Positions 6,057 through 25,594 of a stretch of DNA of 32,416 bases are shown in pieces. The notes under the pieces were generated by a model. It was not told the origin of the DNA and did not search any database. It saw nothing but the letters and a program-made list of their open reading frames with translations. Positions within the stretch are counted from its first letter, which is position 1. Each line of letters opens with the position of its first letter. The position numbers were made by a program, and so were the translations under genes. This DNA comes from an uncultured Paraprevotella sp. (GTDB taxonomy: Bacteria; Bacteroidota; Bacteroidia; Bacteroidales; Bacteroidaceae), in the NCBI GenBank assembly GCA_944319925.1, contig CALUFQ010000036.1, positions 1 to 32,416 on the forward strand, read 5' to 3'.

Positions 6057-6116
6057 GTTCGTCTTCGCGATTCAGTTTGTTTGCATTTTATGTCGTGATT
6101 TCTTTTGTCTGACGGG

Positions 6117-6163
6117 CAAAGATAATGCAAACCGAGCGCAGGACAAAACAAACTCGTTTGTTT
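6117..6163 (-). promoter_or_regulatory. Promoter with palindromic operator-like site, copy A (nth)
   Basis: Read on the minus strand: palindrome AAACAAAC-GA-GTTTGTTT (6146-6163), overlapping a -33 box TTTG (6144-6147), then exactly 19 bases to a perfect -7 box TATCTTTG (6117-6124). This drives nth, with a leader of about 55 bases. The module is part of a 57-bp unit repeated at 6192 and, in plus orientation, upstream of lepA. Confidence 0.75.
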
Positions 6164-6191
6164 TTCATGCCGAGGTGCAGCTTATCTTATG

Positions 6192-6238
6192 GAAAGATAA
6201 TGCAAACCGAGCGCAGGACAAAACAAATTCATTTGTTT
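6192..6238 (-). promoter_or_regulatory. Promoter/palindrome module, copy B (upstream of nth)
   Basis: A second copy of the module lies 75 bases further upstream, in the same orientation. Its palindrome is AAACAAAT-GA-ATTTGTTT (6221-6238), with the C-G pair of copy A changed to T-A on both arms. A TTTG -33 box (6219-6222) precedes a 19-base spacer and a -7 box TATCTTTC (6192-6199), one base off consensus, so it may be a weaker or decayed promoter. The repeated 57-bp units span 6118-6174 and 6193-6249 and differ at very few positions. Confidence 0.65.
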
Positions 6239-6337
6239 TTCATGCCGAGAGTCTTCCTGCGCGAGGTGCATGGTGTTTTTCTGCGGGAAAAAGCTTTTTG
6301 AATCGCCGGGAATGGCGATTCGGAGCCAGGCTTCAAA

Positions 6338-7971: not shown

Positions 7972-8125
7972 TAAAAACGCGAAAAAAAAACTTTTTGCTA
8001 TGTTTTTTTGTCCAAAGGCGAACAAATGCTCTTTGGCGCGGTTGGCTCGGAAATATGCTTTATGATTTTGATTTTCCTTTGGATTACATGCTCTTTTGAT
8101 AAGAAAAGCTTTACTTTGGCATGAA

Positions 8126-8172
8126 AAATAAACGCGTTTATTTTGTCCTGCGCTCGGTTTGCATTATCTTTG
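8126..8172 (+). promoter_or_regulatory. lepA promoter with perfect palindrome over the -33 box
   Basis: A perfect 18-bp palindrome AAATAAACGCGTTTATTT (8126-8143) overlaps the -33 box TTTG (8142-8145). After 19 bases comes the -7 box TATCTTTG (8165-8172). The flanking bases (GGCATGAAAAA before, and the G+C-rich spacer CCTGCGCTCGGTTTGCAT) are nearly identical to the two modules upstream of nth. The transcript would start near 8179, fixing the lepA start at 8194 rather than the longer frame from 8143. Confidence 0.8.
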
Positions 8173-8193
8173 CATAGCATTTTTTGTTTTAAG

Positions 8194-16985: not shown

Positions 16986-17001
16986 CCTGTCCGTGGATTA
17001 A

Positions 17002-17199
17002 GGAACTGTTTTGAATATGTCGTGTGATGATTTGAAATGAGTTTTCAAGCCGGTTTTGCTTCCGTGATGAGGAAGATAGCGGGCTATCTGACGAAGAACA
17101 GAAGCGTATGTAACTGGCCGGAAAATCGCCCAAGGCACACACGAAAACGAGTACATCAAGCGAAGAAAAAAACTTTTTGTAGAAATTCAAAACAGTTTC
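17002..17199 (+). mobile_element. MITE-like element, copy 1 (198 bp)
   Basis: Terminal inverted repeat GGAACTGTTTTGAAT at the left and ATTTCTAC...-side GAAACTGTTTTGAATTT at the right (read inverted). It is flanked by TAA (16999-17001) and TAA (17200-17202), a 3-bp target duplication. It is closely related to the copy at 20593, with one 7-base insertion near 17105. The element ends 63 bases upstream of ruvX and so separates it from the SPOR gene. Confidence 0.88.
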
Positions 17200-17246
17200 T
17201 AAGATTTATTTTGTGGGACGGTGGCCTGTTTTCCCTCCCTTTTCAT

Positions 17247-20335: not shown

Positions 20336-20870
20336 TGTCATGCTTAACGAATCGGACAAGGAACTGACCCGGCGAGGACACAAGTTTGTGCGTTATGCGG
20401 ATGACTGCATGATCCTCCAATCGACGGATGAGTAACTTCCTCGCCGGATACGCAGTTATGTCTGGAAAAGTTGGAAGAAGGTCGGCACCAAGTTCAAGAA
20501 CCTCATGAAGTGTGGCATAGACAGGTGTAGGGCATGGCAATGGGCCAATACCCGCGGTGGGTATTGGAACGTGGCAGGAAGCCCGATACTAAGAAACTGT
20601 TTTGAATTTGTCGCGCGATGATTTGGGATGAGTTTTCGAGTCTGTTTTGCTTCCGTGATGAGGAAGATAGCGAGCTATCTGACGAAGAACAGAAGTGAAA
20701 CTGGCCGGAAAATCGCCCAAAGCACACACGAAAACGAGTACATCAAGCAGGAAAAAACTTTTTGTAGAAATTCAAAACAGTTTCTAAATCGAGCCATGAA
20801 CAATGAGAGGCTGAAACGCCAAGGCTACCCTTGCCTTGCGGACTTGTATGTCAAATTGCATCAGCACTAA
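20336..20870 (+). pseudogene. Group II intron reverse transcriptase/maturase, 5'-truncated and MITE-interrupted
   Basis: Three fragments of one protein are readable. 20336-20434 gives VMLNESDKEL then KFVRYADDCMIL, containing the catalytic YADD of intron reverse transcriptases, and ends in a stop. In another frame, about 20437-20592, RIRSYVWKSWKKVGTKFKNL and WANTRGGYWNVAGSPIL match the C-terminal maturase (domain X) pattern. After the inserted MITE the frame resumes as NRAMNNERLKRQGYPCLADLY to a stop at 20868-20870. The N-terminal two thirds are absent and frames are broken between fragments, so the protein cannot be made. This is a relic of a retroelement lying downstream of the ruvX operon. 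Confidence 0.9.
20593..20784 (+). mobile_element. MITE-like element, copy 2 (192 bp), inserted in the RT relic
   Basis: Perfect 17-bp terminal inverted repeats GAAACTGTTTTGAATTT. It is flanked by TAA at 20590-20592 and TAA at 20785-20787; removing the element plus one TAA restores an in-frame SPI-L-N-R junction of the maturase. This proves insertion, its boundaries and the 3-bp duplication. There is no transposase gene. Confidence 0.93.
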
Positions 20871-20991: not shown

Positions 20992-23900
20992 CTAGCGGAC
21001 AATGAGCTTCTGTGTCTTTACAAATCCTTTCTGTTCCATCCTTATCAGATAGATGCCGCCATCCTGCAAACCGGTATCCGCCGCGCAGCCCGGTGTCACA
21101 AGCCCTTGCCACAAGACGCGTCCGTCCAAATTGTAGATGCACACGGCGACTCCTTCATTATGTGTGGACACGATGCTGACCCGGCCATTGTTCATCGCGG
21201 CAGACAAGGCCACCTCTTCCGAACGGGTATCAGCCACCGAAACCGGTGTTTCAGACAGGCGCACCATAATTTCGTCCGGACATTCCGCCCCTACCGTAAA
21301 TGCCCCATAATACTGTTTCCTCAAGTCCAACGTCAAACCATAATTGCCAACAGGCAGCGCATGGTAATTCAACTCCATCGTATAAGAAGGATAGGAAACC
21401 CCGTCTTTCGACAAAAGGAGGTCGTAGCCCCATGATTCGGAGTCCGTCCACTCGCTCCCGTCGGGCAGGATGAATCTCATCCTGAACATCCGGTATGAAG
21501 CCAAGTCCACTTCCACTTCTTTGTCTTCCTCCCCGACCTCGAAAGAACCTTCCAAAGGCCAGGTATTGACAAAATAATACCCGCCCTGGACATCCATGTA
21601 AGAAAGCACAAAGGAATGTTTCCCTTCACGCACCATCGTCCCCTGTTGGTCCTTGCTGTCGGCCCATCCATTCCCGTCGATGACGAAATAGACACCATCG
21701 GTTCCTTCCGGCTGGTTCTTCACCACGAACGTCACGGCATGGTAATCCTCTGGGTTGAATTGGAAGTCCACCACCATGTTCTCGTCCGTGATTTCAAAGT
21801 AAACCGTATCGGTGAAGTTATAAGAATAATTGTCATAAAGTGCGGCATATTTCCCCGGAGGCAGAAGACGGTCGTTTTCATAATTTCCGTCGAAGTCTTG
21901 TCCTTCCCTGAACAAACGCACATCTCCTTCAATAATATTTTCTCCGTTCACGGTGAAGTCCACCGTCCGGTAATGGCTGAAGTCCACCGTCTCCACCACA
22001 TCGCTTCCTGCAAGCTCCACGGTGAAGGTGGCCCGCCCGGAATGGTTACTCCCATCATGCACCTGGACTGTACCGCTATATGTGTCTTGCGGCATCCACA
22101 TGCTGCCTTCATATTCTATCGGGGTGACTTCCTTGTTTGCCGTCATATGGAAATATCCATACAACCCATCTATCTCCACCGTCGGCAAGGCTGTTGACCA
22201 CTCGGTATATGGCATCTCAATGCCGGTCACCCGCAAAGAAAATTTACGGTAATCTTCGAACGAAACAGTTTCCTCCGCCATCTCGGCGCCGACCGTGACA
22301 CTTCCGCGCAGGGGCAGATACCCTCCGTATTCACCATACATGACTCCTTGCCCGTATGCTACTTCGTAGGTATAATCGCCCGGCTCGGAAAGGAACACCG
22401 TGCAACGCCCGTCCTCATCCGTGTTGGCAGAAGAGACAATGGAAGAATTACGGCGGACTACCACACAAAAGCCCTCACCCGGATTTCCGTTCTCATCTTC
22501 CACGAAGAACCGGATTCCGCTGTAATCCTCCTCGTTAAACGCATACACGATGCGCTCGCCATCTTCCGACAACGTGAACGTCTGCTCTTTGCCGAAGGGA
22601 TAAGACTGCTGCCCATCCGCCAACTCAAGCTCTGCCTGCCAGCGGTGTTCGCCCGCCGGCATGAGGATTTCCTCCGACCAAGCATTCACGTCTATCCCGT
22701 CTATCATGTAGTGTCCCAAGGAGAAACCTTCCGGTGCGGCCAGATGGGCCGTAAGATAGGTGCCAAAGTCATATTCCAGTTTCACGTCCCCTCCGTTCAG
22801 TGCAATGCCCTGTTCCCGGATGCCGAGGATGTTTTTTATCGTTCCCTCGAAATACAGCTGCAAATTGGCCCGGGTATATTCCTTATCCGCCAATCTGCCC
22901 ACCAAGATGTCTTCGCCGTCTTCAACTTCACTCAAAGATGCGCCATAATAACTAATGTCTTCGTCATCTCCCAAGTCACACCCCGATTGGAAAGACAGGA
23001 TGCGGTCGTAGTAAGATTCGGAGTCCTTGAACTGTTTGGCGTTTTTCAACCTTACCTCCAACAGGGTAGCTCCCGTCCAGTCCACTGCTACCGTGACATC
23101 CTGGGATGAAACCGTGATGTTCTTCAAGGTATTGGAGGGATATAAAGGATTCTCATAAGAAGTCAAATAGTCATAGTAGCCCGGCATCGCATACGCCTCG
23201 CATACGCCCGAGGCATCCGTGACGACCACGGGGCTATCATAATCTCGTCCCAATTGAACGGACACATTTTCCATCGCCGTCCCGTCACGGTCTGTAAACT
23301 TGAACTTGACCACGTGGCTTTGGCTCATATCCACATCAACCGCCACATCCTTGTCCACGACCTGATAGCTGCAAGCATACGGGAAATAGCCCGGGGCGGA
23401 AACATTCAGCGAATAAGTGCCCGGACTGCGGTAAACAGTTGAGAAAGACTCGGCCGGCATCCCTTCAACCGTCACTCCTTCTATGGCCACTCCTCCATGT
23501 CCTTTGATACTGCCCAGGGACACTTTGTATTTCCCGTTCTTTGGTGCTATGGACACTACGCCCTTTTCTTCTTCCAAATCAACAGTCCCGCTGCAATCCC
23601 CGAACAAATCGGTGTTGAATCTCCAAGATATGGTTGGCTCGTCCCACCAGAAAGCCAAGACTCCCCCATCATCCATATACATTTCTTCTGAATAAGAACC
23701 GTCCGTAGTCGAAATGACAAAATAATCGTCCCGGACTTGTGTCAAATCCTCTTCTGTAAGGCCGACCAATCTGAAGACTACAAAATAGCCCTCCAAACTC
23801 ACATTGACGACAGAGGAAGTGCCGTCCCATGAAAAGCGGATTTGCTCATAGCCGTAACCCGTATTATAACTGAACGAATAGACACCGGAACTTCCCAAGC

Positions 23901-24072
23901 CTCGTATTTCAAAGTCACCGTTGGAATCCGTATAGAAATACTCATTGTCGAAAGTCACCGGCAATCCGCTGACCGCCGCCCCGCGCTGGTCGGTCACATG
24001 GACTGTAATATCCCGTGCGAAAGCAGTCAAAGACATCAGGAGCAACGTGCATATCAAATAAACTTGCTTCAT
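20992..24072 (-). CDS. Large type IX secretion cargo protein with repeated Ig-like/carboxypeptidase-regulatory-like modules
   Basis: 1026 residues. A Sec signal peptide (MKQVYLICTLLLMSLTAFA) is followed by many beta-sandwich modules that each open with a 'V.D..G....G..V.F' pattern: ITVHVTDQRGAAVSGLPVTF near 23, VKFKFTDRDGTAMENVSVQL near 255, IRFFVEDENGNPGEGFCVVV near 517, VTFVVKNQPEGTDGVYFVID near 780. They resemble carboxypeptidase regulatory-like or Big-type domains. The last ~75 residues form a type A T9SS sorting domain (RVSIVSTHNEGVAVCIYNLDG ... GIYLIRMEQKGFVKTQKLIVR), so the protein should cross the outer membrane and be attached or released. No enzyme or binding motif is seen; a surface-adhesin or structural role is inference. 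The gene is monocistronic, with a long structured leader (24073-24383). Confidence 0.9.
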   Translation of the reverse strand: MKQVYLICTLLLMSLTAFARDITVHVTDQRGAAVSGLPVTFDNEYFYTDSNGDFEIRGLGSSGVYSFSYNTGYGYEQIRFSWDGTSSVVNVSLEGYFVVFRLVGLTEEDLTQVRDDYFVISTTDGSYSEEMYMDDGGVLAFWWDEPTISWRFNTDLFGDCSGTVDLEEEKGVVSIAPKNGKYKVSLGSIKGHGGVAIEGVTVEGMPAESFSTVYRSPGTYSLNVSAPGYFPYACSYQVVDKDVAVDVDMSQSHVVKFKFTDRDGTAMENVSVQLGRDYDSPVVVTDASGVCEAYAMPGYYDYLTSYENPLYPSNTLKNITVSSQDVTVAVDWTGATLLEVRLKNAKQFKDSESYYDRILSFQSGCDLGDDEDISYYGASLSEVEDGEDILVGRLADKEYTRANLQLYFEGTIKNILGIREQGIALNGGDVKLEYDFGTYLTAHLAAPEGFSLGHYMIDGIDVNAWSEEILMPAGEHRWQAELELADGQQSYPFGKEQTFTLSEDGERIVYAFNEEDYSGIRFFVEDENGNPGEGFCVVVRRNSSIVSSANTDEDGRCTVFLSEPGDYTYEVAYGQGVMYGEYGGYLPLRGSVTVGAEMAEETVSFEDYRKFSLRVTGIEMPYTEWSTALPTVEIDGLYGYFHMTANKEVTPIEYEGSMWMPQDTYSGTVQVHDGSNHSGRATFTVELAGSDVVETVDFSHYRTVDFTVNGENIIEGDVRLFREGQDFDGNYENDRLLPPGKYAALYDNYSYNFTDTVYFEITDENMVVDFQFNPEDYHAVTFVVKNQPEGTDGVYFVIDGNGWADSKDQQGTMVREGKHSFVLSYMDVQGGYYFVNTWPLEGSFEVGEEDKEVEVDLASYRMFRMRFILPDGSEWTDSESWGYDLLLSKDGVSYPSYTMELNYHALPVGNYGLTLDLRKQYYGAFTVGAECPDEIMVRLSETPVSVADTRSEEVALSAAMNNGRVSIVSTHNEGVAVCIYNLDGRVLWQGLVTPGCAADTGLQDGGIYLIRMEQKGFVKTQKLIVR

Positions 24073-24202
24073 TTCTTTATGATTTAATTAATAATTGAAT
24101 AACTTACAAACACACTGACGCTCTATGGATAAGAGCCTGAGCCCTGTTCCGGGAAAGACAATAAGAAAGCGTGGACTCTTCACTTTGTCTGTCTTTTCAG
24201 GT

Positions 24203-24300
24203 ATCGCCAAACACCTTCGCTATCAAACAAGTAAAAGCCCACGCCGGAGGCGTGAGCATCAACTTTTACTCTTGATAGCTGTTTTCTAAAATTTGGCGAT
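24203..24300 (-). ncRNA. Four-helix structured RNA in the leader of the T9SS cargo gene
   Basis: Four nested, perfectly paired helices form one long hairpin: P1 ATCGCCAAA/TTTGGCGAT (9 bp; 24203-24211 with 24292-24300), P2 GCTATCAA/TTGATAGC (8 bp; 24219-24226 with 24272-24279), P3 AGTAAAAG/CTTTTACT (8 bp; 24230-24237 with 24263-24270), P4 CACGCC/GGCGTG (6 bp; 24240-24245 with 24249-24254, 3-base loop). Asymmetric internal loops separate them (12/7, 1/3 and 8/2 bases, minus-strand reading), like ligand- or protein-binding RNAs. It lies about 130 bases upstream of the start codon and downstream of the promoter at 24390. It could be a riboswitch, a protein-binding leader or a stability element; I do not recognise it. 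Confidence 0.65.
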
Positions 24301-24389
24301 TTTGAAAAAACAAGAATAAAGCTAACGCTTCTTATCTATATGTCTGTATTCTGTTTTGTTACATAGGCACAAGTATTTAGTTATGCTTG

Positions 24390-24419
24390 CAAAGTTAATA
24401 GTTTTTTTGCATCAACAAA
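24390..24419 (-). promoter_or_regulatory. Promoter of the T9SS cargo gene
   Basis: On the minus strand a perfect -7 box TAACTTTG (24390-24397) is preceded after 18 bases by TTTG (24416-24419). The transcript start near 24383 would leave a 310-base leader. Confidence 0.65.
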
Positions 24420-25336: not shown

Positions 25337-25369
25337 TCCTATGACGCGAGTGAATGCAAATAGGATTTA

Positions 25370-25561
25370 GAAACTGTTTTGAATTTCTACAAAAAGTTTT
25401 TTCCGGCTTGATGTATTCGTTTTCGTGTGTGCTTTGGGCGATTTTCCGGCCAGTTTCGTTTCTGTTTTTCGTCAAATAGCCCGCTATCTTCCTTATCACG
25501 GAAGCAAAACTGACTCGAAAACTCATCCCAAATCATCGTGCGATAAATTCAAAACAGTTTC
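25370..25561 (-). mobile_element. MITE-like element, copy 3 (192 bp)
   Basis: Same length as copy 2 and by eye more than 90% identical to it, in opposite orientation. The ends are GAAACTGTTTTGAATTT and, inverted, GAAACTGTTTTGAATTT. It is flanked by TTA at 25367-25369 and TTA at 25562-25564, a 3-bp duplication of the TNA type. It directly follows the hairpin cluster. Confidence 0.92.
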
Positions 25562-25594
25562 TTATTTTTTCGGATTATATCCTGATACTCAATT

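Follow-up and report, generated by a model that had tools for sequence, protein, structure and literature searches.

Orphan riboswitch-like leaders, of the kind of the c-di-GMP (GEMM) riboswitch, are the class with which the RNA element described here is compared. Another system used for comparison is the tetQ leader, which has a three-codon leader peptide. It is poorly understood by what means Bacteroides and bacteria like them coordinate their numerous surface proteins after transcription. According to the available part of one report, Bacteroides generally lack Hfq, ProQ and CsrA (PMC12119571), and in the available text of another the tetQ leader of Bacteroides CTnDOT is listed as a translation attenuator (PMC5418344). 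In addition, the FopS RNAs are described, in the accessible part of the report on them, as trans-acting sRNAs of about 65–70 nt, 9 of 14 of them intergenic, which bind RbpB, an RRM protein and global RNA binder of B. thetaiotaomicron (PMC11697453). Bacteroidales-1, Bacteroides-1, Bacteroides-2, Bacteroid-trp, 6S-flavo, Flavo-1 and GUCCY-hairpin are given as candidate structured RNAs of Bacteroidetes in the available text of a further study (PMC2864571), and the HMP2 human-microbiome set, as its available text has it, comprises 3161 candidate RNAs, several of them in Bacteroidetes and 508 directly upstream of genes (PMC8040213).

The locus analysed here lies in a stretch of 32,416 nt (the window; contig CALUFQ010000036.1) from an uncultured Paraprevotella sp. 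Like leaders of the GEMM kind, it is a structured and conserved leader that occurs in many copies per genome, before diverse genes including many for surface proteins, and also on viral contigs. Unlike them, it combines one long irregular hairpin with a candidate downstream pseudoknot strand and a 5' micro-ORF, has no Rfam match, and was seen only in the Bacteroidota, the sole phylum searched as whole genomes. Like the tetQ leader, as far as that leader is described, it has a hairpin preceding the gene and, upstream, a very short ORF, but the tetQ leader is a single drug-response leader, and here the genes are varied and the micro-ORF has mostly 0–2 codons after the AUG. FopS is likewise a multicopy RNA family of Bacteroidaceae, for which the available text names a sigma-ABfr promoter, phage sequence and outer-membrane targets (PMC11697453), but the present element is about 175 nt long, is part of leaders, and is also found in genomes without an RRM_1 match. 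It differs from the motifs of PMC2864571, so far as the available text lists them, in that no Rfam family reached its gathering threshold here; Bacteroides-2 and GUCCY-hairpin, for which the available text shows no Rfam number, lie outside this comparison. Going by the text description in the available part of PMC8040213, none of the HMP2 candidates is named as lying upstream of varied surface genes, and the leader may overlap with one of the unnamed candidates of that set. No description of the leader was found in the mainly open-access literature searched. A structured cis-acting leader is a known kind of element; the family, its reach and the combination of its parts appear to be new.

Fold and parts of the leader

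The hairpin belongs to the minus strand and is part of the leader of a gene with a T9SS tail (20992–24072). An initial annotation of this DNA had described four nested helices of 9, 8, 8 and 6 bp, and all of them are present on that strand, namely AUCGCCAAA/UUUGGCGAU (9 bp), GCUAUCAA/UUGAUAGC (8 bp), AGUAAAAG/CUUUUACU (8 bp) and CACGCC/GGCGUG (6 bp, or 9 bp if GCU/GGC is added, an extension in competition with the third helix for its last G-C). It had also held such pairing to be difficult to obtain by chance, and the fold agrees: the core (24157–24345) has a folding energy of -67.6 kcal/mol against -40.75 ± 4.44 kcal/mol in shuffled sequences (z = -6.05), a value equalled by 0 of 200 shuffles, and the full leader has a z of -4.68. 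By this score and the covariation given below, chance pairing was ruled out as the origin of the hairpin. Plus-strand RNA as the folded species was ruled out as well, since the core folds less stably in antisense (-57.6 kcal/mol). The conserved element is longer than the 98 bases first assigned to it: the covariance model R1, of which the window copy is a part, matches 24163–24335 on the minus strand, about 173 nt (8.1e-39, 170.5 bits). In the sense direction the leader runs from the promoter through GCCUAUGUAAC with the micro-ORF and the element (24335–24163) to a stretch of 90 nt and the ATG of the gene (24072–24070), which is 131 nt from 24203. The hairpin therefore lies, as had been proposed, between a predicted promoter of Bacteroidetes type and the start codon.

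All parts of the element are on the minus strand. The closing helix P1 pairs UAAGAAGCGU (24325–24334) with ACGCUUUCUUA (24162–24172), with 89.4% of the cells paired in 100 aligned sequences and both-sided changes at 5 of 8 pairs. The region 24319–24330, formerly read as a second hairpin, does take part in the structure, but by holding the 5' strand of P1, the partner of which is 24162–24172. Likewise, the pairing once suggested between 24152–24159 and 24189–24197 is replaced by helix P2a, in which 24303–24310 pairs with 24192–24199 (both-sided changes at 9 of 9 pairs, 96.1% of cells paired). Further inward are P2b (UCGCCAAA at 24292–24299 with UUUGGCGA at 24204–24211; 7 of 8 pairs, 94.5%) and P3 (GCUAUCAA at 24272–24279 with UUGAUAGC at 24219–24226; 6 of 6 modelled pairs, 90.3%), the sequence of which is almost unconstrained while the pairing is retained. 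P4a pairs AGUAAAA (24264–24270) with UUUUACU (24230–24236), helices 5 and 6 of the alignment being paired in 90.6% and 90.4% of cells. It is followed by a one-sided bulge GUUGAU (24258–24263), of which GAU is well conserved by column conservation, and by P4b (GCUCACGCC at 24249–24257 with GGCGUGGGC at 24237–24245; 8 of 9 pairs, 97.1%), where one pair is a conserved U-G wobble in 81 of 97 cells. Around the P2b 3' strand there is a near-invariant GGY ... RCC, in the window GGU (24213–24215) and ACC (24200–24202). By our own reading it is GGU/ACC in 95 and GGC/GCC in 4 of 100 copies (90 and 3 as aligned, six copies being shifted by one or two bases and one copy lacking it). From its sequence, GGY/RCC could close a small alternative hairpin of 3 bp that is incompatible with full P2b.

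Two sites in this structure resemble the end of a transcript. P4b with UUUUACUUGU scored as terminator-like, and the P1 3' strand includes a conserved U-run (consensus CACGTTTTTTT), as would be expected of a transcription attenuator in which P4b with UUUUAC, or P1–P4 with the U-run, ends transcription early and a signal picks the short RNA or the mRNA. However, the single terminator-like site compares with 0.8 expected in shuffles. Some diverged copies have an interrupted U-tract behind P4b (GGGCUGUUCUUAUUUG in L008), and part of the U-run that follows P1 is base-paired within P1; we consider attenuation unlikely.

The predicted promoter (24390–24419, minus strand) consists of TTTG (24416–24419), 18 nt and TAACTTTG (24390–24397), and was assigned by the Bacteroidetes-type consensus, TTTG / TAnnTTTG; promoters of this type are outside the coverage of the sigma-70 promoter scan. 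Its predicted -7 box sits upstream of the element, which would place the transcription start before rather than behind 24203. Among 108 copies, TAnnTTTG occurs within 160 nt upstream in 79, in 61 of these at 35–70 nt. As controls, the reverse strand has the motif in 10 of 108 and an interval farther upstream likewise in 10 of 108, and shuffled sequences gave 9.0.

Close to where the transcript is expected to begin, the window has a start-stop micro-ORF, ATG TAA (24364–24359, minus strand), a short upstream ORF of the sort that leader-peptide attenuators have. In a survey that took in 18 extra copies from two genomes (G062 and G052; of 22 read), 86 copies had a -7 box 20–130 nt upstream, 52 of them with an ATG before P1 and 34 without, and in 44 of the 52 an in-frame stop follows within three codons. 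Counted over all 85 ATGs between the -7 box and P1, an early stop is found for 55 in frame and for 10 and 27 in the other frames, where overlapping ATGs can share one stop. The forms include ATGTAA, ATGTAG, ATGATATAA, ATGGGCTAA and ATGAAGCATTGA. The micro-ORF is not universal, as it is missing in many distant and phage-type copies, and L044, L049 and L013 have AUA where its AUG would be. By eye, several distant copies without it carry a small 5' hairpin in its place; such a hairpin upstream of P1, with a loop like GGAGAAAUCC, replaces it in L098, L134, L060, L232, L237 and L205, and UCUUUCGGGAC-type hairpins lie upstream of P1 in L061, L083 and L202. In the window the micro-ORF starts about 30 nt before P1, so it is doubtful that a stalled ribosome overlaps the P1 core; ribosome feedback via the micro-ORF is plausible.

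The location at the expected 5' end, with the micro-ORF as a possible ribosome seat, would also suit a 5' stabiliser, a structure that only shields the mRNA from decay and senses nothing. Many unpaired positions are conserved too (column conservation), and neither these nor the near-invariant GGY/RCC would be needed by a plain stabiliser, which we therefore hold to be decidedly unlikely.

Spread of the family and selection on its RNA

A BLASTN search with 111 hairpin bases gave matches in 16 of 61 genomes, including the source genome. In the oriented copies the order of the helices is constant, the P3 sequence is free and the P2b sequence is swapped. RNAalifold on the raw MAFFT alignment gave only 18 pairs because the variable helices were misaligned. 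R1 was therefore built on a structure assigned manually to 12 copies, in which between 32 and 46 of the 48 pairs are formed per sequence. Homologous leaders, on whose existence the initial annotation had made its proposal depend, are numerous: R1 has matches in 146 of the 201 genomes searched from the same family (E ≤ 0.01), in 80 of 198 genomes of the order (E ≤ 1e-4) and in 16 of 148 genomes of a phylum sample, two of them outside the class (E ≤ 1e-4). There are up to 12 matches per genome in the 201-genome family search. A fuller search of 12 genomes gave a maximum of 29 in G052, two of which are antisense of listed places, leaving 27 sense copies, and the source genome has six sense copies. 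When an exact 16-mer scan was followed by R1, the carriers named among the 80 of 119 stretches listed were Paraprevotella clara, Hoylesella, Bacteroides timonensis, Barnesiella, Coprobacter, Butyricimonas, Dysgonomonas, Muribaculaceae, Rikenella and Alistipes MAGs, and Maribellus, and R1 was absent from the listed 16-mer stretches of other phyla, for example those of Streptococcus, Caballeronia, Stutzerimonas and Pantoea. Cultured organisms among the carriers are Paraprevotella clara YIT 11840, Bacteroides timonensis, Coprobacter secundus and Butyricimonas synergistica. In IMG/VR the element is present in 19 of 72 stretches sharing a 15-mer. Carriage of close copies by plasmids or named phages was rejected, the window copy having no blastn match in the plasmid and phage collections. 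In Rfam 15 there was no match at the gathering threshold in the window, nor did any fall on the element in 18 related loci (two tRNAs lie elsewhere in these loci), and a search at E up to 10 gave only 8 matches, all below threshold. The covariance search that had been recommended thus found no known Rfam family, yet the element's own model finds many relatives; it is apparently an undescribed RNA family of Bacteroidota.

For the survey of copies, 53 of 75 matches were kept from the 16-mer stretches (8 antisense matches were left out, as were 14 that were weak, second or end-lying) and 50 of 77 from a second set of R1 matches (21 antisense, one second copy and 5 whose place was already covered under a different locus were left out). 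The total of 122, including all 19 viral copies, was reduced by 9 repeats or near-identical copies to 113. Counts made on this set use 103–110 of the 113, as a flank, an anchor or a clear ORF is lacking in the rest, and they are not independent because the copies are mutually related. Two loci have tandem leader matches on the same strand, L060 (3134–3301 and 3433–3644) and L042 (1501–1679 and 1810–1941), the upstream match being weak in each.

In 100 aligned copies, 93.3% of 4656 cells are paired and 43 of 48 pairs have both-sided changes with the pairing kept, in an alignment fitted to the model and so biased in favour of structure; paired substitutions in P1–P4, which the initial annotation had named as support, were accordingly found. 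The covariation score is 0.506, compared with 0.188 ± 0.005 in shuffled and 0.069–0.093 in slid alignments. In unfitted sequences P2b becomes UUGGGGA/UCCCCAA in L002 and L010, and L022 is a further raw example of a P2b change. The covariation gap and these raw examples do not come from model fitting alone. Furthermore, there are 427 G-U cells versus 66 A-C cells, and this excess, with the conserved U-G wobble, indicates that sense RNA is selected and not a DNA hairpin. When the source genome is compared with P. clara (G013), identity is 96% in the element, 73% in the ATG spacer, 69% in the first 900 coding bases and 54% in the upstream 400 bases.

The genes behind the leader

In 82 of 104 copies an ATG frame of at least 130 codons begins no more than 130 nt downstream, versus 5 of 104 on the antisense side, and the median distance to the ORF start is 56.5 nt (104 of the 113 copies, with a laxer length limit). 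The 103 downstream proteins fall into 73 BLASTP clusters, the largest of 15. By a rule of our own, based on hydrophobicity and a lipobox and not on SignalP, 71 of the 103 look secreted, versus 85 of 425 neighbouring ORFs, and 32 do not. Family scans of 94 of the 103 proteins gave BspA-type LRR in 14, dockerin in 4, DNA methylase in 3 and the T9SS tail in 2 with Pfam, where many families occur only once among the first 25 of 50 families listed, and the T9SS tail in 5 of 94 with NCBIfam. The leader also precedes genes for cytosolic proteins, for DNA methylases and for a protein with a restriction-type N-terminal domain. The link to secreted or surface proteins that had been suspected thus holds statistically, but not as an exclusive one. 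The gene in the window (20992–24072, minus strand) encodes 1026 aa with a signal-peptide-like start, a CarboxypepD_reg domain and a T9SS type A sorting domain; its assignment as T9SS cargo is confirmed by TIGR04183 (26.1 bits, cut-off 23), and Pfam PF18962 scores 14 bits, below its cut-off of 27.

Of 76 cases, 62 have a nearest leader whose gene is unrelated, and so do 21 of the 28 with a leader identity of at least 80%. L061 and L083 are 94% identical from the promoter box to ATGAAAAA and divergent after it, while L011 and L019, from one genome, are 96% identical over 348 nt, the end of the upstream gene included. Within a given genome, leader and gene are both shared by some copies and the leader alone by others. 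The shared stretches have no common ends among the best 70 pairs, which gives no indication of a fixed-length transposon. The occurrence of almost the same leader before unrelated genes, as in these two pairs, and the presence of the element in the viral stretches could also mean that it is a DNA element, a gene-capturing hairpin site for recombination or mobility that is folded only as single-stranded DNA. Against this, the 427:66 ratio and the conserved wobble pick out the RNA of one strand, the promoter motif and the gene lie on matching sides far above control, and common ends are absent, and we regard a DNA element as highly improbable. What the sequences present is a promoter motif, a selected sense RNA, a place before the start codon and near-identical leaders before unrelated genes; the best reading is a portable leader for cis-acting post-transcriptional control, in which the regulation itself is what we infer.

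Several repeats were also observed. L132 (1–8000 of CALUUA010000015.1) has two leaders 3.1 kb apart with unrelated small genes behind them, and the second is accompanied by a duplicated 3' end of the gene preceding the first, which suggests that genes may have been exchanged there via recombination at the leader. In the window, a 201-nt repeat is present at 20590–20790, 25364–25564 (inverted) and 16999–17202, 91–95% identical, with 48 matches in the source genome, some partial or split; two of its copies, inverted to each other, lie on both sides of the T9SS gene with its leader. At 6116–6249 and 8066–8176 there are further repeats, direct and inverted, which are about 57–108 nt long and 81–96% alike.

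The P5 pairing and a possible mode of action

Immediately 5' of the P1 3' strand lies GAGUCC (24173–24178, minus strand), which can pair with GGGCUC (24139–24144) as helix P5. In 109 copies (3 were left out for want of an anchor) the mean duplex energy is -7.88 kcal/mol with the own partner and -6.46 ± 0.16 kcal/mol with exchanged partners, the lowest of 200 runs being -6.91. An energy of -10 kcal/mol or less is reached by 34 of the 109 (exchanged, mean 9.2 and at most 17), -8 by 54 (mean 27.3, highest of 200 runs 39) and -6 by 73 (at most 70 in 200 exchanged runs). P5 is weak or absent, above -6 kcal/mol, in 36 of the 109, for example in L038, L040 and L049. At this position the P. clara copy (L003) carries GAGTCC/GGACTC, and variants elsewhere are AGUUCCC/GGGAACU (L120), AAGUCUC/GAGACUU (L126) and ACAAGCCUC/GAGGCUUGU (L205). 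In the window there are 0 nt from the P5 5' strand to the P1 3' strand and 17 nt from there to the P5 3' strand; with these spacings, P1 and P5 are predicted to fit together and can form an H-type pseudoknot.

P5 also bears on a stand-alone, trans-acting sRNA with its own promoter and an end at the P1 U-run, for which the proximity to genes would be secondary. The element does have its own promoter motif and the U-run, and multicopy sRNAs are known in Bacteroides from the available text on FopS (PMC11697453), but P5 pairs across the would-be 3' end, and the link to the gene is tight and orientation-specific at a median of 56.5 nt, which makes an independent sRNA very unlikely.

A general switch by strand exchange through a second, downstream P2b 5' strand was rejected, since only 4 of 110 copies reach 8 pairs (shuffles 0.72, highest 3), namely L184, L013 (inside the coding part), L099 and L017, with shorter ones in L061 and L083. 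An extra P2b 5' strand (AATCGCCAAAC or shorter) lies upstream of or near the start codon in L184 (1277–1426, minus strand), L061, L083 and L017, and local strand exchange is possible in this subgroup. Pairing around the start codon of the window gene is incomplete (mean 0.43), which leaves simple start masking unsupported. An RRM protein like RbpB was rejected as an obligate partner, as RRM_1 is absent (E 1e-5) in 28 of 80 leader-positive genomes, including the source genome, versus 30 of 118 leader-negative ones, so that the share of genomes lacking it is no lower in the positives. As in riboswitches, a structured RNA stands directly before genes, but the genes are unrelated, unlike in most riboswitch classes.

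With somewhat better than even confidence, we favour a family of cis-acting mRNA leaders before unrelated accessory genes, most of them secreted-looking, in which a factor or ligand would set translation or mRNA fate via P1/P5. The leader would then probably mark varied genes for common control. In this model the transcript would start about 20 nt upstream of the start-stop micro-ORF, and the RNA would fold into the one long hairpin P1–P4. The 3' side of P1 adjoins the 5' strand of P5, and the two could stack to give an H-type pseudoknot before the start codon. Most likely a factor or ligand common to the carriers, other than an RRM protein, would read the GUUGAU bulge and GGY-P2b-RCC. P1/P5 would thereby be favoured or opened, which would set translation and hence the fate of the downstream mRNA, and ribosome loading at the 5' micro-ORF may feed into this decision. 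Going further, we tentatively raise the possibility, to which we give clearly less than even weight, of a phylum-wide and horizontally exchanged RNA switch, in which the micro-ORF would report the ribosome or second-messenger state and the P1/P5 pseudoknot would relay it to the start codon of the particular surface or accessory gene that had captured the leader. If that is true, the leader would serve as a plug-in module by which the variable surface of Bacteroidota is controlled.

A leader at up to about 27 places per genome, also in cultured strains, would amount to a new regulon under post-transcriptional control, and such a regulon would make the signal and the partner directly searchable. 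The portable promoter-plus-leader is a possible expression part. If it is a sensing RNA, the leader would represent a very widespread undescribed class.
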